DNA from: a virus
IMG/VR virus record: IMGVR_UViG_3300022200_002069
Span: 1 to 21,687 of that record
Strand: one strand, 5' to 3'
DNA length: 21,687 nucleotides
The translations under genes and the position numbers were made by a program. This document shows positions 2,913 through 21,457 of this stretch, piece by piece (position 1 is the stretch's first letter; each line of letters starts with the position of its first letter). A model generated the notes under the pieces. The model made no database searches, was not told the origin of the DNA, and saw only the letters and a program-made list of their open reading frames with translations.

Positions 2913-3758
2913 TTATAAAGAGTATTGATCTATACCATTACCACTACCCCCGCCAACATACAGGTGGCTGCCGTCAGGGGAGATATACATAGACCACGGA
3001 GTGGTTTCTTGCGCAGTTACAGTAAGACTATCGTCAATTGTTGGACCTACCATTGAAACGTCGTAAGCGGTAGTAGCATTCCATTGATAAATCTTGTTGT
3101 ATACGTTACCCACAATGTAAAAACGTTTACCGTCTGGTTTCATAAACATTCCCAGGCCAGCGCTTTCGTTGAGAGGTGAAGAAGCAATACTAGAGCCAGC
3201 GCTAGATGTGGTCGAGCCTAATGTTGAAATGTCCCAAGCGGTTGAAAGATCAATGCGTTTTATAGTATTTGAACCCATGCCCTGAACAAACACCATTGTT
3301 CCATCGGGGCTGAAGCTAATTCCCCGAATGTTGCTTTCAAATGTGCTAACGCTTGCTACTCTTGTCCATGAAGCTGTACTCAAATCCCATCCTGTAGACA
3401 AGGTGTATTGGTTAATGGTACTGTTCGTAAGGTCTGCAACGTAAAGTCCGGTCCCGTCAGGCTTAAAAAATATGCCAACGGGATTGGGGTTGTTGGTTGA
3501 ATTTGTATACAATTGATAATCACGGGCTCCATGGGAGCTGATGTCCCAAGCCGTTGGCAAAGTTGTTTCTCTTAGCTGTCTAGATGGATTTACAGTGTAA
3601 ACTTTTGTGCCGTCAGGCTTAAAAAATATTCCGCGAACATCTCCGCCTGCGTTGACGGTGTCAAACCGAACAAAACTTGCGGTACTAACGTCAGACCAAG
3701 AGGCAACGCTACTACTTGTTGAAATATTAGACCCAACCAAAGAAAGTAGAATGCTCAT
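2913..3758 (-). CDS. Five-bladed beta-propeller, likely adhesion protein
   Basis: The 281-residue protein contains five copies of a PDG motif at residues 48, 100, 151, 208 and 261, each inside a unit such as VRGIFFKPDGTKVYTV followed about 15-20 residues later by LSTAWDIST. Unit length is 51 to 57 residues, which suits one propeller blade. The N-terminal WSDVSTASF matches the missing outer strand of the last blade, which ends at IDQYSL, so the ring probably closes by joining the two termini. FKPDGT/WDIST repeats are common in bacterial surface proteins and some marine phage fibres. No catalytic site is evident, so carbohydrate or receptor binding is the likely role. The start overlaps the upstream stop as ATGA, within a cluster of fibre-type genes. 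Confidence 0.82.
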   Translation of the reverse strand: MSILLSLVGSNISTSSSVASWSDVSTASFVRFDTVNAGGDVRGIFFKPDGTKVYTVNPSRQLRETTLPTAWDISSHGARDYQLYTNSTNNPNPVGIFFKPDGTGLYVADLTNSTINQYTLSTGWDLSTASWTRVASVSTFESNIRGISFSPDGTMVFVQGMGSNTIKRIDLSTAWDISTLGSTTSSAGSSIASSPLNESAGLGMFMKPDGKRFYIVGNVYNKIYQWNATTAYDVSMVGPTIDDSLTVTAQETTPWSMYISPDGSHLYVGGGSGNGIDQYSL

Positions 3759-4435
3759 GACAAACCAACACCTGTTACATAAGCACCAGCATCTGCATAG
3801 TACATAATAGTTGCAATACCATGTTGAGCTAAAGTAAATGGGCCTGTTGATCCGTCTCCAGCTTTGTATATAGTAACGCCTGTTCCTGCTTGAATAGTAA
3901 CACCCGCTAATCCGGTATTTACAATAGTTACAATACCTTCCTCTGTATTATTATTGTCCACATTAATGGTAATAGTTCCTACCGGAATACCACATTGAAT
4001 AACATGGCCTAAATAAGTTGACGCATTTACAGTAGAAGCTGTGTTAATAAAATGCTCTTTAATAAATTTGGTTACGGTAGAATTATTGAAAGTAGTTTCA
4101 CCATTAAAAGTAGAAGCATTAGTGAAAGCAGTATCACCATCAACAGTGTTACTACCGTCAGTTTTTAACGTAATTTTATTGCCAGCTGTATTGGGAGTAC
4201 CTTGACTATCAACTTGTTGAACAACACCGTCAACGCTAGTACCACCAATGTTTAAATTGTTTACTCTAAGATTACTATTGAAAGTAGTTTCACCATCAAT
4301 AGTATTTGTACCGTCAGTTTTTAAGGTAATTTTATTACCAGCTGTATTGGGAGTACCTTGGCTGTCAACTTGTTGAATTACACCATCTGCGCTTGTACCA
4401 CCCACATTTAAATTGTTTACTCTAATGCTGCTCAT
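3755..4435 (-). CDS. Fibre-like protein with tandem repeat
   Basis: This 226-residue protein begins MSSIRVNNLN and has two near-identical 52-residue units (4-55 and 56-107), each containing VNNLN-GGTS-DGV-QQVDSQG and PNTAGNKITLKTDG. After a spacer with a third partial copy (STFNGETTFNNSTVTKF) comes a C-terminal beta-rich domain (about 125-226) with alternating Val, Ile and Thr, including GTITINVDN and VTIQAGTGVTIYKAGDG, ending TGVGLS. Similar heads close other phage fibres. Repetitive Asn/Thr/Gly shafts with a distinct head are typical of trimeric tail fibres. It overlaps both neighbours by ATGA. It may attach to the main fibre or form a side fibre. A structural adhesion role is inferred from architecture and context. 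Confidence 0.75.
   Translation of the reverse strand: MSSIRVNNLNVGGTSADGVIQQVDSQGTPNTAGNKITLKTDGTNTIDGETTFNSNLRVNNLNIGGTSVDGVVQQVDSQGTPNTAGNKITLKTDGSNTVDGDTAFTNASTFNGETTFNNSTVTKFIKEHFINTASTVNASTYLGHVIQCGIPVGTITINVDNNNTEEGIVTIVNTGLAGVTIQAGTGVTIYKAGDGSTGPFTLAQHGIATIMYYADAGAYVTGVGLS
4115..4426 (-). repeat. 156-base tandem direct repeat inside a fibre-like gene
   Basis: Two adjacent in-frame units of 156 bases (4271-4426 and 4115-4270) encode the 52-residue repeat. Long blocks are almost identical at base level; on the plus strand both copies carry attttattgccagctgtatt or the same block with one change. High base identity implies a recent duplication or ongoing gene conversion, and copy number could vary between relatives. 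Confidence 0.85.
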
Positions 4436-5145
4436 GATGGCCTCAAAAATTCAATGGACAAAGATTGGTTAGTTAAAGCATTAAGTACCCCATCTAATCG
4501 CAGAGCTATTGATGTTGTAGTATTGTTTGTATCGGTGCCCTTATCCCAAACAACTGATGTTTTAATAACTTCACCAGCTGCACATTCTAGGATTGCAGAG
4601 TGCTCATAGCTAGTAGTACTTGCTTCTTGATCTCGCCTATTAAACACTTTAATATAAAGTGTATCGTTCCAACCCGTTTTATTGTTAGCAGCAGCACGAG
4701 CGATACCAGAAGTTATGCGATGTACTTTTGTGGTATCAGCAAACGTCGGAAAAGTTGCCAAAAATTGATGATTCACACGATAAAAACCTGCTTGAGGAAC
4801 TACATACCAGTAATTAGTAGCATCCCAAGCAGAATGTGTATCTGTTTCAAACTCGGAGCCGATGGTGGCTGGATCTTTTACCCATTCAATAGGCCGAGAA
4901 AAACCACCACTACTAACATACTCTGTATAAGACGTTGTGTTGTAACCAGCTAGCCTTAATAAAGGTACAGCCGTACTATTTGGTACTGTTTCCCAATCAA
5001 GTTCACCTGAAGTGTTACCAGCAACTAAAGCTTGACCAGCACTAGAGTTACCACTTGGAAATTTAATTGTTACGTCAGTTGACGTGCTAGCAGCAGAAAG
5101 GGAGACTGAGCCTCCCCCGCTACTTGATAATTTAACAGAAGACAT
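4432..5145 (-). CDS. C1q/TNF-like jelly-roll fibre protein
   Basis: This 237-residue protein starts MSSVKLSSSGGGSVSLSAAS, a Ser/Gly-rich stretch like the N-terminal repeats of phage fibre proteins, followed by VTIKFPSGNSSAGQALVAGN. From about residue 80 it resembles a C1q-type globular head: IEWVKDPATIGSEFETDTHS, a WDATNYWYVVPQAGFYRVNH strand block, then repeated beta strands ending SLSIEFLRPS. The motif W-x-Y-x-V-P-x-A-G-x-Y-R-V matches the core strands of C1q/TNF jelly rolls. These domains trimerise and bind ligands, so host recognition is likely. It is the first gene after the main fibre, ten bases away, and overlaps the next gene by ATGA. The fold call is from motif memory and the role is inferred. 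Confidence 0.75.
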   Translation of the reverse strand: MSSVKLSSSGGGSVSLSAASTSTDVTIKFPSGNSSAGQALVAGNTSGELDWETVPNSTAVPLLRLAGYNTTSYTEYVSSGGFSRPIEWVKDPATIGSEFETDTHSAWDATNYWYVVPQAGFYRVNHQFLATFPTFADTTKVHRITSGIARAAANNKTGWNDTLYIKVFNRRDQEASTTSYEHSAILECAAGEVIKTSVVWDKGTDTNNTTTSIALRLDGVLNALTNQSLSIEFLRPS

Positions 5146-5155
5146 AATAATTTAA

Positions 5156-8100
5156 TTAAACAATAGTCCAGGTTGAGCCAGGAGGAATAGTGATTGTGAC
5201 ACTTGGGTTTACAGCAAGTGGACCAGCAGACATAGCGTTTTTACCTAAAGTAATGGAGTAGTTAGCAGTTACTGCTTGATCGTTTTCAAAAAACACTAGA
5301 TTAGTACCACCACCTTTAAGTGTTTCAGGAGTTGGTGTTTGCCAATACAAAGTTCCAGCGCCGTCTGTAGACAGTATTTGAGTAGTAGCTCCATCTGCAG
5401 CTGGTAATGTCCAAGTAACATCTGCTGCGATAGCACTAGGAGCTTTAAATCCTACAAAGTGAGAACCGTTAGCAGCTAATTCCTTGAATGCAAGAGTGTT
5501 AAGAACGTTTCCAGAAGTTTCAGATAGGAATAGGTTGCCAGTAAACGTATCACCAGTACTACGTGCAACGCTGCTGTCAACTTGAAGTTCAGTATTACTA
5601 ATTTCTAAACCACCATTAGCAGCTAAATCAACGCTAAACTCAGTGTTAGTTAGATCAAGACCATCGCCAGCGGTATAGGTGGTGTTAGTATCAGTAGCAG
5701 CGATGGTAATTGAACCGTTACCGTTGGTAATATTAACATTAGTACCAGCCGTAAGTGTAGCTTTACTTAGTGTGGTTCCACTTGAATTACCAATCAGAAG
5801 TTCACCATCGGCATAACTGGTTTGCCCAGTACCACCGTCAGCGGCCGCAAGTGTTCCTGTGATCGAAGAAGCACCAAGATCAACTGCAATTTCATTGTCC
5901 TGTCCTTCAGTTACAAGGCCGCCGTTGGCTTTTAGATCAGCAGCAAGTGAAATTGAACCAGTACCATTAGTGACGGTAATACCATCTCCTCCAGTAATAG
6001 TGGCTTTGGAAAGTGTATTACCAGTTGAATTACCAATCAGCAATTCACCGTCGGTGTAACTGGTTTGTCCAGTACCGCCATAATCAACACCAATTGTTGT
6101 ACCATTCCAAGTACCAGTACCGATGGTACCGACGCTAGTCAGACTAGAACCAGTAACAGTAGAGCCTAGAGTGGTGGCGTTTAGAACACTTGACCCATTA
6201 ATCTTATAATCTTTGCCTGATGCAAGATTAATGTTTTCACTGCTAGTCCAAGATGTGGAAGATTCTACATAATTAAATGTCTTATCGGTGGTCCCTTTAA
6301 CAGTAACACCGCCTCCATTTGAATAAAGATCACTTGGGCCAGGCTGGCTAAATGTTATGTTTGAATTAGTGGCTGTAATGTTATTGCTAACAGTAACTTC
6401 GTTAACGTTATTAACCGTCTGGTGGCTGACAATATATGTGTTTGCCGGAACACCGGTACCGGTAACCAGCATATTATCGATTACTTTGGCAAAATCATCG
6501 TCACTAACACCAGTAATAGTAGGACTATTATTTGTAGTGTTGCCAACAAAATCTTCACCAACAATAGAACTTAACGTAAGGTTTTTATCGTCAAGTGTAA
6601 TTTCAGTACTGTTAACTGTTGTAGTCGTACCATCTACTTGGAGGTTACCACCAATAACAATATTGCCAGTTGTAGTAACAGAAGCTGCTGCAATAGCCCC
6701 ACCATTAGTAATGTCATTACTATTTAGGTTGAGGTCGCCGGTCATTTGACCAGTACCATCTGTTGGCAGAGCACCCGCCGCCAAATCGTAAGCCTCTTTT
6801 ACTGCAGCTGCAGAGGCAACAACAGTAGAAGAATTTGTGTTTGTAGTATCAGTAATGCCTGTAATTGAACCAGCTGTTCCAGGACCACTCCCGTTATCAA
6901 AAGTGATACCGATATTTTGGTTTAGGTCAATATTACCCGACATAGCACCGCCAGTTTTTGGCAGAGCAGCATCAGCGGTAGTATTAGCAGTGTCTGCGTG
7001 ATCATAAGCAGCTTTTACGGCACTAGCTGTTGCAGCAGTCGTGGTTGAGGTACTGTCTGTCGCAGTGTTTAATTGGACAATGCCTGCAGCAGAAGTTGTA
7101 GCAGCGTTAATATCTAAAGTAACAGTTTTTACACCATTAGCAGTAGCAGTGGTTTTAGTAATAGGTAAGGTTACATCTACCTCTCCAACTTTACCATCTG
7201 TGTATTGTTTATTAGCAGCATCTGTATTTTGACCGGGGGTACCAAGACCGACAATTTTATAATTATTTAGGTCAACATTAGATCCAATTTGGATACCATT
7301 TTGTGTGGTAGATTTAACAGTTTGGTTAGCAGTATCTAAAGTTTCAATAAGAAGAGGGATACCTAAACTACCTGTAGGAAGACTGACGCTTCCCGATTGC
7401 TGATCAACTTCAAAATCACCAGCCTTAAACTTACCTTGATGGTCAACAATAACAGCCCAGATTTTGCCACCATCCAATTCAGTAATCTGTTTGGTTTCAT
7501 CTGGCGTACCACCGTTTTCAGGTAGTGCTCTGTAGTCAGTACCACTTCCCGCATATTCCATAGTGTGACCGCTAGATGCGACCATAGAACGGAAATAAAA
7601 TGAAACCGTGGTATTGTTACTGACAGGGAATTGCAAACCATCATTAAGAGACGCATTAGTTTGGTTTGCCCTAAAGATAGTAACCTCACCGGTTGTGCTA
7701 TTCCAATTAGTAATTGGATAAACCACTGATCCAATTTGGACTACCATATTGGTTGAGGGGACGCCTGTTCCTCCGCCACCAATAGTAAAAGATGAAATAT
7801 TATCAATTTTTATTTTATCAGCTCCAACAAGGTAACCGCTGTTTTGATTTACCTGTGCCGTAAAAATTGCACTTGGCGACTTACCGTCTGCAACCAAAGC
7901 ATAATCACCAAAGTCAGTGGTTGATGCAGCAAGGTTTGCTTGACCACCATTATGAGCTTTGAGGTGGTAATGACCAAAGAATGAATAGCTACTCGTCAGC
8001 TGTGTGTAGCCATTATTAGTAACAAAGATACCTGGACCTTTAAGACCAACTTGTGTAAAGCTGTCAGCAACCATTGACCGCAGTTTACTGTCATATGCAG

Positions 8101-9751
8101 GTTTAGCACCGTCAATAATAATACCACCTCCAGTAAATTCAGAGGTCAAATCACCAGCAGTACCAGCAGCAATATCGGTAGTACTGTAAGCTACTCGCTG
8201 GTCCCAATCACCTGGCATTGGATTTGAATAATCTTCTCTGTAATTAGAGTTAAGAATCTGACTATCAGTAAAGTTAGTACAGTTTTGAATATAAGGTGAT
8301 TTGTTAATCTTAGCTCCAGGCAAGAAGCCAAAGATCCAACCCTGATAGCTAGGCAAGCCTGTAGGATTGGTAGAGGAGTTGTACGCATCAATAGGGTGTG
8401 GGTCTGCGCCAGTTGTATCAGCTTTCATACCAACAAAAGTCATGTTGGCAATGTAAGTACCGCTATTACAACGGAACATCACAGCGTCAACATAATTCTG
8501 CTGGTTTACGTTCCAATAATCAGGGTTAGTAGTTCCAGCGCCAACAGTTTGCTCAGCTTCCATAGTTTGATATGGATCTTGCATCTTGCTTTCGCAGTTA
8601 GACAACGGCTGTACAAAGACACTACGAATAGAGTCACCAACAATTGACAGGTTCTTTTGGGTGATGTCTAGCGGCAATTGTTCCTGATAAACACCAGGGG
8701 CAATTGAAATGTAGTCACCATCATTAGCAAGTTCAAGAGCACGTTTAATAGTACGTACTTGGTTGATAATACGCCTTCCATTATTTGTATCATTACCACT
8801 ATACCTATCAACATAAATAGTTGTAGGTTGCACAGTAAAGTCTCCACCTGATGCTACAGCAACCCAACTGGTACCATTGAAAATACTAACAGTTTTGTCG
8901 GCGTCATTTTGAAACCAGACTTGACCCTTTAATTTATTAGTAGTAGACAGTGCAGAAGCGCCTGGCTGTGTTACATAGTTTCGATAGCGATGCTCAGCGG
9001 TAGCAGCAGAAACAAGACGGTCGTCATTAAATGCGCCGCTTTGCGTTTCAGTTAGACCCTCAGTTTCGATAATAATATCGTCTTCTAAAAGTCGATTAGC
9101 ATCAACACCACCTTCTTGGATACCAATAACAGTTGTACCGTTTGAAGTATTAGGCCTTACATCGATACCATCTGCACCAGTTATGTCAGTTGTGATAGCA
9201 GTGTCAATCTTGGTGTCAACACGGTCATCAATAGCTTCTGTAGTAGCAATTTTGGTATCGTCACTTACCCAAGGATTTCCATCATAAATAGTGTTGTCAA
9301 ACCTATCCCAATAATAATCTTTCAGGTATTCTTCAACATCTTCAGGAACACCAGGGCAGTTAGCTTCTTGTAGAGCATAACGAAGTTGCTCAAAGTTCTT
9401 GTTCAGGTCATCGGACCTAATGGCAGAACCAGGGTTGAACAACGCTCGGATGTCGTCAGTGTTGGTAACACGACGGATCTTAACGTTGTCAACATAATCT
9501 TCGTTTTCTCCCAATACTTGATCCGTTTTATTAGGGGGAGCAGTACCAGTAAACTCTACAATGGTTGGGTTAGCATCATCAATTTGCCAGGGATAAGTGG
9601 CATCAGTCGTGAGTTTTTCGTCCCATTCTTTAGTTGTAGCGTTCCAAAAGTAAACGTGTATTTCAGATTTAAAAATGTACGGGAAGTTAAAAGAAAACTG
9701 TGTCTTTGTCCCGTCTCCAGATTGAATTGTTTGTACGTCAGCACACGACAT
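5156..9751 (-). CDS. Mosaic tail fibre with T7 gp17-like N-terminus
   Basis: At 1531 residues this is nearly three times the length of T7 gp17. Residues 1-135 resemble the T7 fibre domain that docks on the tail, with VKIRRVTNTDDIRALF and IRSDDLNKNFEQLRYALQEA. Residues about 310-650 look like a right-handed beta-helix (TIYVDRYSGNDTNNG, then DGDYISIAPGVYQE). Residues 725-790 (GHTMEYAGSGTDYRALP, GGKIWAVIVDHQGKF) match a module I remember from T4-like cyanophage fibres. Then come coiled-coil-type units (KAAYDHADTA, ALPKTGGAMSGNI), a VDGTTTTVNSTEITLDDKN module, two GGTGQTSY repeats and a C-terminal tip NAMSAGPLAVNPSVTITIPP that is frequent in cyanophage fibres. It probably determines host attachment. 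The composition suggests assembly from recombined parts. Confidence 0.9.
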   Translation of the reverse strand: MSCADVQTIQSGDGTKTQFSFNFPYIFKSEIHVYFWNATTKEWDEKLTTDATYPWQIDDANPTIVEFTGTAPPNKTDQVLGENEDYVDNVKIRRVTNTDDIRALFNPGSAIRSDDLNKNFEQLRYALQEANCPGVPEDVEEYLKDYYWDRFDNTIYDGNPWVSDDTKIATTEAIDDRVDTKIDTAITTDITGADGIDVRPNTSNGTTVIGIQEGGVDANRLLEDDIIIETEGLTETQSGAFNDDRLVSAATAEHRYRNYVTQPGASALSTTNKLKGQVWFQNDADKTVSIFNGTSWVAVASGGDFTVQPTTIYVDRYSGNDTNNGRRIINQVRTIKRALELANDGDYISIAPGVYQEQLPLDITQKNLSIVGDSIRSVFVQPLSNCESKMQDPYQTMEAEQTVGAGTTNPDYWNVNQQNYVDAVMFRCNSGTYIANMTFVGMKADTTGADPHPIDAYNSSTNPTGLPSYQGWIFGFLPGAKINKSPYIQNCTNFTDSQILNSNYREDYSNPMPGDWDQRVAYSTTDIAAGTAGDLTSEFTGGGIIIDGAKPAYDSKLRSMVADSFTQVGLKGPGIFVTNNGYTQLTSSYSFFGHYHLKAHNGGQANLAASTTDFGDYALVADGKSPSAIFTAQVNQNSGYLVGADKIKIDNISSFTIGGGGTGVPSTNMVVQIGSVVYPITNWNSTTGEVTIFRANQTNASLNDGLQFPVSNNTTVSFYFRSMVASSGHTMEYAGSGTDYRALPENGGTPDETKQITELDGGKIWAVIVDHQGKFKAGDFEVDQQSGSVSLPTGSLGIPLLIETLDTANQTVKSTTQNGIQIGSNVDLNNYKIVGLGTPGQNTDAANKQYTDGKVGEVDVTLPITKTTATANGVKTVTLDINAATTSAAGIVQLNTATDSTSTTTAATASAVKAAYDHADTANTTADAALPKTGGAMSGNIDLNQNIGITFDNGSGPGTAGSITGITDTTNTNSSTVVASAAAVKEAYDLAAGALPTDGTGQMTGDLNLNSNDITNGGAIAAASVTTTGNIVIGGNLQVDGTTTTVNSTEITLDDKNLTLSSIVGEDFVGNTTNNSPTITGVSDDDFAKVIDNMLVTGTGVPANTYIVSHQTVNNVNEVTVSNNITATNSNITFSQPGPSDLYSNGGGVTVKGTTDKTFNYVESSTSWTSSENINLASGKDYKINGSSVLNATTLGSTVTGSSLTSVGTIGTGTWNGTTIGVDYGGTGQTSYTDGELLIGNSTGNTLSKATITGGDGITVTNGTGSISLAADLKANGGLVTEGQDNEIAVDLGASSITGTLAAADGGTGQTSYADGELLIGNSSGTTLSKATLTAGTNVNITNGNGSITIAATDTNTTYTAGDGLDLTNTEFSVDLAANGGLEISNTELQVDSSVARSTGDTFTGNLFLSETSGNVLNTLAFKELAANGSHFVGFKAPSAIAADVTWTLPAADGATTQILSTDGAGTLYWQTPTPETLKGGGTNLVFFENDQAVTANYSITLGKNAMSAGPLAVNPSVTITIPPGSTWTIV
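5690..6082 (-). repeat. Two copies of the GGTGQTSY fibre repeat
   Basis: Two 50-residue units, at 5933-6082 and 5690-5839, each read GGTGQTSY-x-DGELLIGNS and continue LSKAT, then a T-N-G-x-GSI segment. They lie 81 residues apart and are separated by an ANGGLVTEGQDNEIAVDL segment. Such units build the shaft of many marine phage fibres and are likely sites of recombination. Confidence 0.85.
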
Positions 9752-16737: not shown

Positions 16738-17640
16738 TTAAAATGTACTCCAATCAAAAGTAGCCGCACTCTTAGCAGCATCACTAATACCAGAGATCAA
16801 TGGAACAATAGTATTTTGTTTTGTAGGACGTTGTACAGCAGCAGGAGCCACAGGTAAAGGAGCCATGAATATCCTTTCAGGTGTTTCCATTGGACGCATC
16901 ATGCGAGGACCACGTTCAGGTTCAATCATCATACTTGCATTAGCTTGCAAGTCAGCAGCATACTTACCAAATGCAATCTGTCTCAAGTTACGTTGAGTTT
17001 GCTCTACAGAGCTAGACAAACTAGCATCCATGATTGCAGCGTTCCTACCAAGACTAGCAATGGTAGATTGCATAGCCTTGTTACGAGAGTTACCTGCTTG
17101 ACCAAGTGCAGCCTTACCTTCTGCTTGTACTTGGTCTACCAAGGCACCTTGACGTTGGAAAGCATACTCATCATACACTTCATTCAACGCAGCTTGTTCA
17201 GCCATACGGGCTTCTTGTTGAGCAATGTTGTTGTAGGTAAGTTGATCAGCAGTGTTTTCTACTGATTTACCATACGCCTTATATGCTTGAAGATATTGAA
17301 AGTCTTGAATGCTGTCGTTGTACTGCCATTGACGCAGTGCATTAGCATATTCATACTTACGATTGGTTTGGTAGTTAAGTTGTTGAATACCAAATGCAGT
17401 TCTATTTGCTTCATTTTGTACATTAGCATCAAGCTCAGCCTGAAGCTTATTCATTTCGTAAGCACGTTCAGCTTGTTCGTTAGCTTCTTTGGCTTGGTTA
17501 GAGCCCATGATACCTTCAAACAAGCTGCTACCAATATCAAGCAAAAGGCCTGCACCTGCTGCAGAAATAACAGACATTTCCAACCCCGATTCAGCAAGCT
17601 GTTCATCCAAGAGGTTGTAGTTTTTATTTAATTCAAACAT
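16738..17640 (-). CDS. Internal virion protein, T7 gp14-like
   Basis: This 300-residue protein (T7 gp14 is 196) has one apolar stretch near the start (VISAAGAGLLLDIGSSLFEG, 24-43), then an almost wholly helical, Gln/Ala/Asn-rich body with repeated Tyr and Arg, typical of the first internal core protein. The last 60 residues are proline-rich (MMRPMETPERIFMAPLPVAP). In T7, gp14 is ejected and inserts in the outer membrane to open the envelope channel. The start at 17640 overlaps the TTPB stop as TAATG and follows a strong GGAGGA site, so I prefer it over an internal ATG at 17577. Position directly after tail tubular protein B supports the assignment. Confidence 0.82.
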   Translation of the reverse strand: MFELNKNYNLLDEQLAESGLEMSVISAAGAGLLLDIGSSLFEGIMGSNQAKEANEQAERAYEMNKLQAELDANVQNEANRTAFGIQQLNYQTNRKYEYANALRQWQYNDSIQDFQYLQAYKAYGKSVENTADQLTYNNIAQQEARMAEQAALNEVYDEYAFQRQGALVDQVQAEGKAALGQAGNSRNKAMQSTIASLGRNAAIMDASLSSSVEQTQRNLRQIAFGKYAADLQANASMMIEPERGPRMMRPMETPERIFMAPLPVAPAAVQRPTKQNTIVPLISGISDAAKSAATFDWSTF

Positions 17641-20279
17641 TAAGTCCTCCTATAGAATCGGGGAGAGTAGTTACCTTCCCACATCATTGATACCAATGAT
17701 ACAGGATATGGGAAATTGCTTGTCACTTTAAGATCAAAATTAGTATTACGTTGGTGTACAGGTACGATAAAAATTTTCTCTGATTCAACAGGATTACTAT
17801 CAGCAGAATAATAATCAGCTTCCATGTTGTGCTGAATATCTTTCCATTCGTTAGAGCCTTGTGCTTTTAGCTTGAACTGGATTGCTCCAGTACGACCAAT
17901 AGAAAACTTAGCTCTAGATATAGTAAGTTGAGCAGTGTAATCAGTTGTAACTTCGTTTCGCCTGTAGTAGAATTTAGGTAAAGTAACTTCAAAGTCATAA
18001 TTATAACCAACGATAATACCGTCAGCATACTCAAGGAAATTACCTTTTACTTCAAAGTAACGATAACCTGTACCAAGTTCAGTACGTTCGGTTGCTTTTG
18101 CCCAGTAACCGGGATCAGCATCAATCACAGCATCTGTACCTTTATCTGCTGTAGGAACAGTCAGAAGCATAGCAGCTTCTTTATTTGCAATAGGTGTGTA
18201 CGGTACGTAGATTTTAGTGATGTCGTTTGTTTCATCATAGACAACAGGGTCAACACCAACTGCTGGGCTAACCGGACGTGTAGCCATGTCTAGTACAGGG
18301 TTACCGCTAAACCCAGATGCAGTCGCAATAGTAGAACCAGCTGGCAACTCATCTAACGCAATAGAACCAATGGTGTATTCAGTTCCATGTTGAGAAACAA
18401 CGAACACCTCATCGTTAATAATCTTTGCAGATTGAATAGTACCAGGCAATTCCCACTTAGTCCATGCTTGAAATAGATCTTCCTTACCATTATTATAATA
18501 TCTATAAAGGTACAGGTAAGAGGTATCCCTGTCTACAAGCATCAACACAGAGTTAGGTGGACTGGTAGTAATACCATCAATAGTATCAGGCAACCATTCA
18601 AGTACAGCTTTACTGATGTCTATTACAATAGGTGATTGTTCCACACTACGTAGTTGCATAGTAAACAACTTACTATAACCAGGAACACGGCTAACAAAGG
18701 CAGTAGTTGTACCTACATCCACAGGTGCAATGTCAGTAGCCATCTCATAGTTAGAGAGTGCACGGATTACTGCAGAACTAGGTGTAAGAACACTAGCATC
18801 AGTTGCATACAGTTGGAACTGTTGACGTTCACTAAACAACAACAAACCTTGTGGAGAAGGTAGAACGTCAGACAACACAACAGGACGCACACTAGACACA
18901 TTAAGATCAATAGGATCTGAGTCAATCTGTGTCAATGCAGATCTAGTAAAGAGATTATAACTATCGTTTGCTACACCAAGAATTATGTTATCTTCAGACA
19001 ACATACCAAAGCGGTTGCTGTAAAAAAACGTAGAGTTAAGTTTTTTACCAGTATAAGTTACAGGTGATGTATCGTTAACTGTGATAAAAGAGGGAGGTGG
19101 GTTAGTAGTATCATCACCAGTCAACCGTCCCTTCCAATCAATAGGTTCAAATGTAAATGTATTTGGACCTGTGTTACTTAACCTGTGAGGCATATAATTA
19201 GGATCAAGTCCTGGAGAAACGTCAGGAGCATGAGTCTCTTCCCAATAACCACGCCCCCTATTTATAGTGGAATCATACGCAACAAATTTAACGTAATAGT
19301 CATCTTCTGCATTATTACTGTTTAGAATTTTTACAATATGACCACCAAAAGATTCTAAAGGTAATTTGCTAACATTATTTACATCATCTTCAAACACCTC
19401 TAGCGAAATGTTATTAACACCACCTCTGGCATCAATATCAAATGCTACAGGATTACCAGTTGGTGCACTGTAGTCAAGAACAACAGACTCAGCTTGTGAC
19501 GCAGGTACAGCATCAGTGTGCTTAATAACAATACTATTAGCGTAACTTTCTAAATACCACGTACCTGTATTACTAAAATTACTGTCAGTACGAAGGTAGT
19601 TTACAATAGCATCAATTAAATGGTGATCTAGATCATTCTCACTTGGAACAGTGGCCCCAGTATTATCTAATACATGAAACAACATATCATCGTATGTTGT
19701 GTTATTTGTAGATGTTATAGGGCCGGTACCATTACCGTTAAGGATGTCTATGTTGTTAATGGTAACTGTAAATTCATCATCTGGCGTAAGAGTATTTAAT
19801 TTGATAGTAGCTACAGAACCAGCTGAAAACGTGCCTGCTGCCTGCATAGCAGTGTTAACAGTTTTGTTGGTAATAATTGTAGTGTCTTGAATACTTCTAA
19901 AATGAAAAGAAGGTTCTGTTGCAGGAGCGTCAAAATCAGTTAAATACGTACCAGCGTTATCGGTAATAGTACAGAACGTACCATCTTCTGCAGTCCAAAC
20001 AAAGATGTCAGATCCTTTAATACAACCAATATAAGACCCAGCAGCAGCACGGTCAATATAAAACCAAGCTGCACCTGCTAGTTCACTTTGGGTATAAGCA
20101 TCACCATTAGCTTTACGCAACACGTTAGTGTATTTCATACCAGGTCTTTTAAGTAGACCAAAGGTTGCATCAGGATAACCGTTAAGACACTCAGTTACCT
20201 GATTCTGTAATTTTTTATCATCATTCTGACGGGATACACCGCCAAGAAAATTAGGAGTTAGCTGAGTTACTGCTGGCAT
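17640..20279 (-). CDS. Tail tubular protein B (T7 gp12-like nozzle)
   Basis: The 879-residue protein (T7 gp12 is 794) opens with LTPNFLGGVSRQNDDKKLQN and NGYPDATFGLLKRPGMKY, which match the T7 gp12 pattern of KGG-x-S-x-Q, then NG, then GLxKRP. The middle is beta-rich, as expected for the propeller-like nozzle that extends the tail tube. The end, VSLVSMMWEGNYSPRFYRRT, corresponds to the conserved gp12 C-terminus around SxxWEG-Y. It assembles as a hexamer below tail tubular protein A and carries DNA through the tail. The start overlaps the TTPA stop as TAATG, which suggests coupled synthesis of the two tail proteins. Confidence 0.93.
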   Translation of the reverse strand: MPAVTQLTPNFLGGVSRQNDDKKLQNQVTECLNGYPDATFGLLKRPGMKYTNVLRKANGDAYTQSELAGAAWFYIDRAAAGSYIGCIKGSDIFVWTAEDGTFCTITDNAGTYLTDFDAPATEPSFHFRSIQDTTIITNKTVNTAMQAAGTFSAGSVATIKLNTLTPDDEFTVTINNIDILNGNGTGPITSTNNTTYDDMLFHVLDNTGATVPSENDLDHHLIDAIVNYLRTDSNFSNTGTWYLESYANSIVIKHTDAVPASQAESVVLDYSAPTGNPVAFDIDARGGVNNISLEVFEDDVNNVSKLPLESFGGHIVKILNSNNAEDDYYVKFVAYDSTINRGRGYWEETHAPDVSPGLDPNYMPHRLSNTGPNTFTFEPIDWKGRLTGDDTTNPPPSFITVNDTSPVTYTGKKLNSTFFYSNRFGMLSEDNIILGVANDSYNLFTRSALTQIDSDPIDLNVSSVRPVVLSDVLPSPQGLLLFSERQQFQLYATDASVLTPSSAVIRALSNYEMATDIAPVDVGTTTAFVSRVPGYSKLFTMQLRSVEQSPIVIDISKAVLEWLPDTIDGITTSPPNSVLMLVDRDTSYLYLYRYYNNGKEDLFQAWTKWELPGTIQSAKIINDEVFVVSQHGTEYTIGSIALDELPAGSTIATASGFSGNPVLDMATRPVSPAVGVDPVVYDETNDITKIYVPYTPIANKEAAMLLTVPTADKGTDAVIDADPGYWAKATERTELGTGYRYFEVKGNFLEYADGIIVGYNYDFEVTLPKFYYRRNEVTTDYTAQLTISRAKFSIGRTGAIQFKLKAQGSNEWKDIQHNMEADYYSADSNPVESEKIFIVPVHQRNTNFDLKVTSNFPYPVSLVSMMWEGNYSPRFYRRT
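17645..17650 (-). promoter_or_regulatory. Strong ribosome-binding site GGAGGA
   Basis: On the minus strand GGAGGA precedes ATG 17640 by four bases (CTTA), inside the last codons of the tail tubular protein B gene. It is the best ribosome site in the window and settles the gp14-like start. Confidence 0.85.
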
Positions 20280-21361
20280 TAGCGTGTCAAGGTATGGAAC
20301 GGTTGATAAGGTTGATAGTAGTCACCACCTTTAGGTGCTCCAAAGAATGAAACATCTTCTTGGTTACACTCATACTCCATTGCCATAGCACGAGCATAAG
20401 CTTCTTTTTGTTGGAGCATTTGATATTGATTAGGGTCGCCAATAATACGGCTAGACACAATACCTGCAGCACGTGCTACAATATATGCTTGGATAGGTTG
20501 TGGGATATTTTCCCAGTCAAAGTTCCAAGTAATATCAACATAGAGTGTTTCGTCAGTCCACTTATAAGAGTGGGCTTTTTTGTCGTAGAGTTTACCCCCA
20601 CGGTTTACAGAAGCTCTACCGATGTTTTGTGTGTAATTTCTATTCAGATCCATTTGGAGCACGTTGTTAGCAATCCGTACTTCGTCGCTAGAATCAGGTG
20701 TAATCGGGTAATCGTATTCTTTATTGTAAGACCATCCTTCACTTTGTACTTCACGTGAGACTTCCCTCAGGGTGTTGAGTGCAATCGCAACGTCCGGGTT
20801 GGTTTGAGTTTCAACTCTACTTGTAACATTAGATTGGGTTAGACTGGCTTGGGTAACAGTGTTACCGACATTAGTACCGTGATTAATGTTTAGTGTATGG
20901 TTATAGTAAATAGGGCTGAGTGTGAGGTTAGCAGCCGTGGCAGTAGTAGCTGTACTAATGGTGTATTCAAAGTTACCACCTCCTACATCGGTAGGACCAC
21001 TATCTACAGTAACTGGTATAGTAATAGTTGAACTACTAATAGACACACCTTTAGGAATGAAGGCAGATGTAGAAGTAAGTGTAGTACCAGAAGCACTAGC
21101 ATTTGGAGTAAACACAGCACGTGTCGTAGCAATAGATGTGTTGTCTTCCACACCAGTACCACCAATGTAAGACCCTTGGGTCAAATCACTTTTAGAAGTA
21201 TACAGTGTAGTGCCAGTAATATAACCTGTGAACCTAGAGGTTTCACTAAGTACAAGAGTTTCTTCAGTTGTCAACGTGGTTACAGGAGCCTGACCAACTG
21301 ACGCCAGGATCTGATTAACAGCTTGTAGCTCAGTGTTGGAGCCAGTAGTAGGGAAAGGCAT
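20279..21361 (-). CDS. Tail tubular protein A (T7 gp11-like) with large insert
   Basis: The ends match T7 gp11 closely: ELQAVNQILASVGQAPVTTL at 11-30, then TNPDVAIALNTLREVSREVQ and SEGWSYN, ASVNRGGKLYD at 250-260, AYIVARAAGIVSSRIIGDPN, a MEYE motif and a terminal LTR. T7 gp11 has 196 residues, whereas this one has 360. The extra length lies at about 31-185, a Thr/Ser/Gly-rich beta-type segment with GTTLYTS and GTGVEDNTSI. The conserved flanks imply a normal gatekeeper ring between the portal and the nozzle, with the insert probably exposed outside the tail. The gene starts 96 bases after the capsid stop and follows the terminator. No clear ribosome site precedes ATG 21361. Confidence 0.92.
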   Translation of the reverse strand: MPFPTTGSNTELQAVNQILASVGQAPVTTLTTEETLVLSETSRFTGYITGTTLYTSKSDLTQGSYIGGTGVEDNTSIATTRAVFTPNASASGTTLTSTSAFIPKGVSISSSTITIPVTVDSGPTDVGGGNFEYTISTATTATAANLTLSPIYYNHTLNINHGTNVGNTVTQASLTQSNVTSRVETQTNPDVAIALNTLREVSREVQSEGWSYNKEYDYPITPDSSDEVRIANNVLQMDLNRNYTQNIGRASVNRGGKLYDKKAHSYKWTDETLYVDITWNFDWENIPQPIQAYIVARAAGIVSSRIIGDPNQYQMLQQKEAYARAMAMEYECNQEDVSFFGAPKGGDYYQPYQPFHTLTR

Positions 21362-21395: not shown

Positions 21396-21447
21396 AAAAA
21401 AAAGGAGCCCCCGAAGGGCGGACGAAGTACGTCCACCAAGAGGCTCC
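21396..21447 (-). terminator. Branched intrinsic terminator after the capsid gene
   Basis: On the minus strand the RNA reads GGAGCC (21442-21447), then an internal hairpin GGACG-loop-CGUCC (21419-21433), then a second one CCC-UUCG-GGG, closing with GGCUCC (21404-21409) and eight U residues (21396-21403). The outer stem therefore holds two inner hairpins, one capped by a UUCG tetraloop. It should stop part of the transcripts after capsid, allowing read-through to the tail genes. The structure was paired by hand. Confidence 0.9.
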
Positions 21448-21457
21448 CAAAGAAAGA

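Follow-up and report, generated by a model that had tools for sequence, protein, structure and literature searches.

A predicted beta domain with exchangeable one- and two-module forms inserted in the tail adaptor of T7-like cyanophages

The gp11 protein (tail tubular protein A) of T7-like phages is regarded as a conserved structural component of the tail. In both T7 and P-SCSP1u this adaptor forms a dodecamer between the portal and the nozzle (PMC6702177, PMC10575957). On the platform of gp12, residues E26, D35 and D39 of the α1-α2 loop of T7 gp11 alternate between two conformations and thereby manage the 12-to-6 symmetry step at the nozzle (PMC6702177). The nozzle of P-SCSP1u is contacted by E19, E20 and N24 of the adaptor, and the fibres lodge between adaptor and nozzle docks (PMC10575957). 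The gates of the tail belong to the nozzle gp12 and the channel of the gp11 ring is without constriction (PMC6702177), and the term "gatekeeper ring", applied to gp11 in a first-pass annotation of the DNA analyzed here, is therefore misplaced. Decorated adaptors are already known: the 741-aa tail tubular protein of Vibrio phage VP2 is adaptor-type by fold search and carries extra beta (Ig) domains. The VP2 Ig domains come after the adaptor region (~residues 227-450), whereas the insert described below lies within the α1-α2 loop. We found no description of the present insert in the open-licence literature, nor is it known as a described feature. What is new here is an inserted, duplicated, recombining domain in this loop.

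The DNA analyzed (the window) is a 21,687-base IMG/VR virus record, from a short-tailed virus that probably infects marine picocyanobacteria. All genes described below lie on its minus strand. The 360-aa tail adaptor (20279..21361) is directly followed by the gene for the 879-aa nozzle (tail tubular protein B, gp12-like; 17640..20279; PF25675, E=2.5e-161), which is the gene order of T7-type adaptors. The adaptor matched phrog_446 (E=4e-57) and belongs to PF17212 (Tube; E=5e-36, 124.5 bits versus a Pfam cut-off of 22.3), which covers it in two stretches, the best at residues 180-336, and its PDB matches by phmmer were P-SCSP1u gp22 and T7 gp11. The AF2 model has the T7-type adaptor fold, with helix bundle and fibre dock. 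A whole-chain Foldseek search with this model returned adaptors, aligned over the core, with TMt values of 0.70-0.72 to 8i4m_G and 6r21. The protein thus shares with T7 gp11 and P-SCSP1u gp22 the core fold (TMt ~0.7), the adaptor-nozzle order and the α1-α2 site, but those two proteins have an α1-α2 loop of a few residues without an extra domain.

The window also encodes a 1531-aa tail fibre (5156..9751), assigned by PHROG tail-fibre families. It is followed by three ORFs of 237, 226 and 281 aa (2913-5145), whose family matches are weak or absent; the 226-aa ORF has two near-identical N-terminal repeats, and FKPDG-like motifs recur in the 281-aa ORF in the manner of beta-propellers. At 1093-1889, two ORFs (116 and 212 aa) overlap in different frames and probably represent overlapping genes; the larger contains an internal signal-peptide-like stretch and matches phrog_1755 and phrog_848. 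A partial ORF at the contig edge (3-245) has an HNH-endonuclease-like motif (CIYCGK...IDHVHPRSRGGED...CNQDK). Between the capsid gene and gp11, a G+C-rich inverted repeat followed by a minus-strand T run was seen by eye (21400-21450, unscored); we take its position to be that of the terminator that follows gene 10 in T7. Rfam families and tRNA were absent from the window.

In phmmer alignments, adaptor residues 10-31 corresponded to T7 gp11 residues 12-33 and residues 183-333 to T7 residues 32-177, leaving an extra segment of ~153 residues between T7 L32 and E33. The first-pass annotation had reported such a segment at residues 31-185, which correspond exactly to 20807-21271, and had noted flanks alignable with T7 gp11 on both sides; the segment is real and the flanks do align. 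As delimited by loop length relative to relatives and by AF2 beta strands, the insert spans residues 31-183 (20813..21271) in the α1-α2 loop. It is preceded by the N-terminus and helix α1 up to the insertion point (residues 1-30, ELQAVNQILASVGQAPVTTL, 21272..21361; AF2 helix 11-21), which align with T7 gp11, and followed by the remaining adaptor with the helix bundle, fibre dock and C-terminus (residues 184-360, 20282..20812), identified by the PF17212 stretch and by Foldseek over the core.

The AF2 model, computed with 34 homologues, predicted a beta-only insert with long strands at residues 34-55, 153-165 and 172-184 and with pLDDT mostly 83-94 over residues 41-160, in keeping with the extra domain of beta-type patterning that the first-pass annotation had described. 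The overall pTM was only 0.51, so that the position of the domain with respect to the core is unreliable, and the insert alone, predicted without an alignment, gave a pLDDT of 33. We read the model as a hairpin stalk bearing a beta domain. A single-module profile (A3) had three matches in the window protein. Module 1 comprises ~residues 41-88 (21098..21241, from the profile and the alignment) and is preceded by the ascending stalk strand, which starts at residue 34; the profile matched the two together at 21113-21274 (E=1.2e-18). Module 2, a diverged tandem copy present in the long class only (~residues 88-148, 20918..21100), was matched at 20921-21100 (E=0.014). The third match, at 20798-20986 (E=2.6e-6), fell on the returning stalk strands (~residues 149-187, 20801..20917), which are also seen in the AF2 model and run up to a conserved ETQTNPDVAIA. 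In the pooled set, the similarity between modules 1 and 2 exceeded that of all shuffles, and z was individually above 4 in three proteins (L031, L034, and L035); the pairwise score for the window protein alone was non-significant. The likeness beyond shuffles shows that the two-module class originated by tandem duplication, which is clearest in its less diverged lineage.

To place the insert among relatives, the α1-α2 loop length was compared in 17 annotated marine podovirus gp11 proteins. The loop has 3-4 residues in 13 of them (S-CBP3, S-SRP01, S-B28, S-CBP1, S-RIP2, S-TIP37, NATL2A-133, P60, Syn5, P-SSP7, two uncultured Mediterranean phages and a roseophage) and 17-19 residues in three (S-CBP4, DSL-LC07, and P-GSP1). 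Only S-RIP1 has an insert (88 residues). Most cultured cyanophage gp11 proteins are thus without the segment, which the first-pass annotation had allowed might be widespread among T7-like cyanophages. The S-RIP1 protein (294 aa, annotated merely as "tail tube A"; L081, record HQ317388, host Synechococcus WH8101) carries its single module at the same site as the window protein, lacks the second module, and its insert is ~38% identical to that of the window. A tblastn search of annotated phages with the insert alone was uninformative, as it missed even the S-RIP1 homologue, probably because of the low-complexity filter. Among uncultured relatives in IMG/VR the insert is common, with 97 distinct sequences among 154 extracted inserts (some contigs are represented twice). 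Full-length insert-bearing homologues in IMG/VR are 58-100% identical, and the insert is therefore no sequencing accident. Counted in the same way as the loops above, the inserts fall into a one-module class of 88-95 aa and a two-module class of 151-163 aa, to which the window belongs with 157 residues. The sole match in bacterial genomes was a gp11-like protein in a MAG (L160, 89% identical), which we read as a probable phage contig binned there.

Nei-Gojobori dN/dS values were 0.23 for short and 0.22 for long inserts and 0.18-0.20 for the core, with no sign of hypervariability of the insert in dN/dS. Together with the confident AF2 fold, a dN/dS of ~0.22 means that the insert is neither disordered nor unconstrained; it is a real domain under purifying selection and is conserved within its clade, which speaks against the possibility of an unfolded, non-conserved insert that the first-pass annotation had raised against itself. 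Mosaicism is general in phage genomes, and loop lengths of 3-4, 17-19, 88-95, and 151-163 aa are as expected of an insertion-tolerant site, so that a neutral duplicating module could be carried as a tolerated passenger in a permissive loop and spread by general recombination among co-occurring phages. We consider this unlikely given the dN/dS of the insert, the invariant residues that occur across the insert family and the retention of both alleles in many samples.

The history of the insert differs from that of the protein that carries it. In a core-only tree, every insert-bearing protein fell on one side of a branch (92/84), and one- and two-module proteins interleaved. In a tree of the insert columns common to both classes (76 taxa), the two-module inserts formed a single clade with a support of 97, a clade that the core sequences of the 76 taxa rejected (delta lnL 616, p-AU 0.00015). 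Columns before module 2 alone gave one class change, and columns after module 2 gave two. Inserts of different classes that are 56-70% identical were found on cores that are 97-100% identical (near-identical cores with divergent inserts are L015/L028, L005-L014/L149, and L016-L020/L099-L107), and, conversely, inserts that are 92-95% identical were found on cores that are 65-67% identical (L018/L026 and L132/L154). From this conflict between core and insert, in identity as well as in trees, it follows that the insert has been exchanged as a cassette; our reading of the cause is recombination in the conserved gp11 flanks. Chimeric metagenome assembly would also generate a mosaic of inserts and cores, and some of the mosaic pairs have the features of such an artefact: L015 and L028 are on contigs that begin at gp11 and go from 83% to 99.94% identity near a single point at the 3' end of the insert, so that this pair may be an assembly chimera. 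We regard assembly as a very improbable source of the general mosaic, since the insert itself is present in the isolate genome of S-RIP1 and since a single core type was seen joined to the long insert in four metagenomes (L016 to L020) and joined to the short insert in no fewer than four further ones (L099, L101, L103, and L107), the latter including contigs of 31 and 42 kb.

The adaptor residues that touch the nozzle in P-SCSP1u fall just before the insertion point. By homology, the insert would emerge where adaptor and nozzle join, close to the bases of the fibres, would presumably be exposed there on the virion, and would be present in 12 copies per virion as in the T7 and P-SCSP1u dodecamers, which corrects the "six or more copies" of the first-pass annotation. 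That annotation also proposed a fibre-docking collar, with which the position of the insert agrees. As a structural collar, the insert would act as a clamp between the adaptor on one side and the nozzle platform and fibre bases on the other, and stabilize the 12-to-6 symmetry change without direct host contact, as might be suggested by the insertion site, which is the very loop by which the T7 and P-SCSP1u adaptors hold the nozzle, and by the conservation of the domain under purifying selection. A clamp is expected to co-evolve with its partner and not to be swapped, but the nozzle tree requires 13 changes of insert class and the core tree 14; the class therefore does not follow the nozzle, and the linkage looked for on the nozzle tree was not found. 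A 3-residue loop, moreover, suffices in functioning related phages.

Tail fibres were compared across relatives over their N-terminal 161 aa. The fibre N-terminal domain is larger in the window and its close relatives (161 aa aligned), and the aligned stretch is shorter in insert-less isolates, where the N-terminus matches at 33-53%. A fibre N-terminus was detected in six long-insert records (L022, L027, L008, L029, L004, and L063), and each is either the larger type I or its 54% relative, in favor of a collar. Type I N-termini, which are 69-79% identical to that of the window, occur with both insert classes, and the smaller type occurs with short inserts and without an insert; the short class thus has both types, which counts against a collar. 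The link between insert class and fibre N-terminus is suggestive at most and, if present, weak. With this evidence on both sides, we hold a collar to be possible but doubtful.

Searches for related domains gave one family. Of 14 single-module inserts, eight matched the tail fiber family phrog_38233, the best with an E of 1.2e-7; all were of the short class and matched over one small stretch of the 896-position profile (approximately positions 554-626 in the one insert looked at in detail), a match that rests on T/S/G-rich sequence; the long insert of the window itself had no match to it. Sequence comparison of the insert with Pfam and PDB gave chance matches only. An Ig-like decoration domain was considered and found no support in sequence, as no Ig family matched the insert at E values up to 10. 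When the module was sought by profile in the tail fibre of the window and in the other ORFs of the loci, nothing significant emerged.

Tail tubular proteins are credible as contact proteins by analogy with published data. Receptor binding is published for tail tubular proteins: in Vibrio phage OWB, adsorption is mediated by TTPA and TTPB, both of which bind Vp0980 (PMC7241545), although the insert is not known from the OWB adaptor, and a natural nozzle mutation was reported to change the hosts infected by an Acinetobacter phage (PMC10904470). Because of these contacts, the cassette exchange, the independence from the nozzle and the match to a fibre family, we tentatively favor an auxiliary host-contact module for adsorption over a collar or a passenger, at somewhat short of an even chance. 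The predicted fold, the constraint on the insert and its site beside the nozzle and fibres also count in favor of this reading. The same observations fit the "additional adhesin" of the first-pass annotation, and it is from them that we infer a host-binding role. Two small tandem modules on a beta-hairpin stalk would project from the α1-α2 loop of each of the 12 adaptor subunits, so that 12 accessory beta domains would surround the adaptor-nozzle junction beside the six fibres. These domains might give weak multivalent binding to the host cell or steady the virion on its surface, and populations might switch between one- and two-module alleles by homologous recombination via the conserved gp11 flanks. 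Receptor-binding tips are typically hypervariable, and the low dN/dS of the insert, with no hypervariability of this kind, speaks against an adsorption module. As the insertion point faces the nozzle platform, packing of the domain on the nozzle and the fibre bases is just as conceivable.

The adaptor of this virus bears a domain, folded by prediction, duplicated and recombining, at the place where the fibre meets the nozzle. Should the insert bind the host, predictions of cyanophage host range from the fibre alone would overlook a determinant; should it clamp the nozzle, it would be relevant to how the 12-to-6 symmetry joint can be remodelled. S-RIP1, a cultured phage with a one-module insert, makes both the adhesin and the collar readings testable. 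With considerable reserve, we suggest that the adaptor ring of T7-like cyanophages may carry a second determinant of host contact, outside the fibre, with one- and two-module alleles swapped by homologous recombination, and that adsorption could thereby be changed without a change in the fibre gene.
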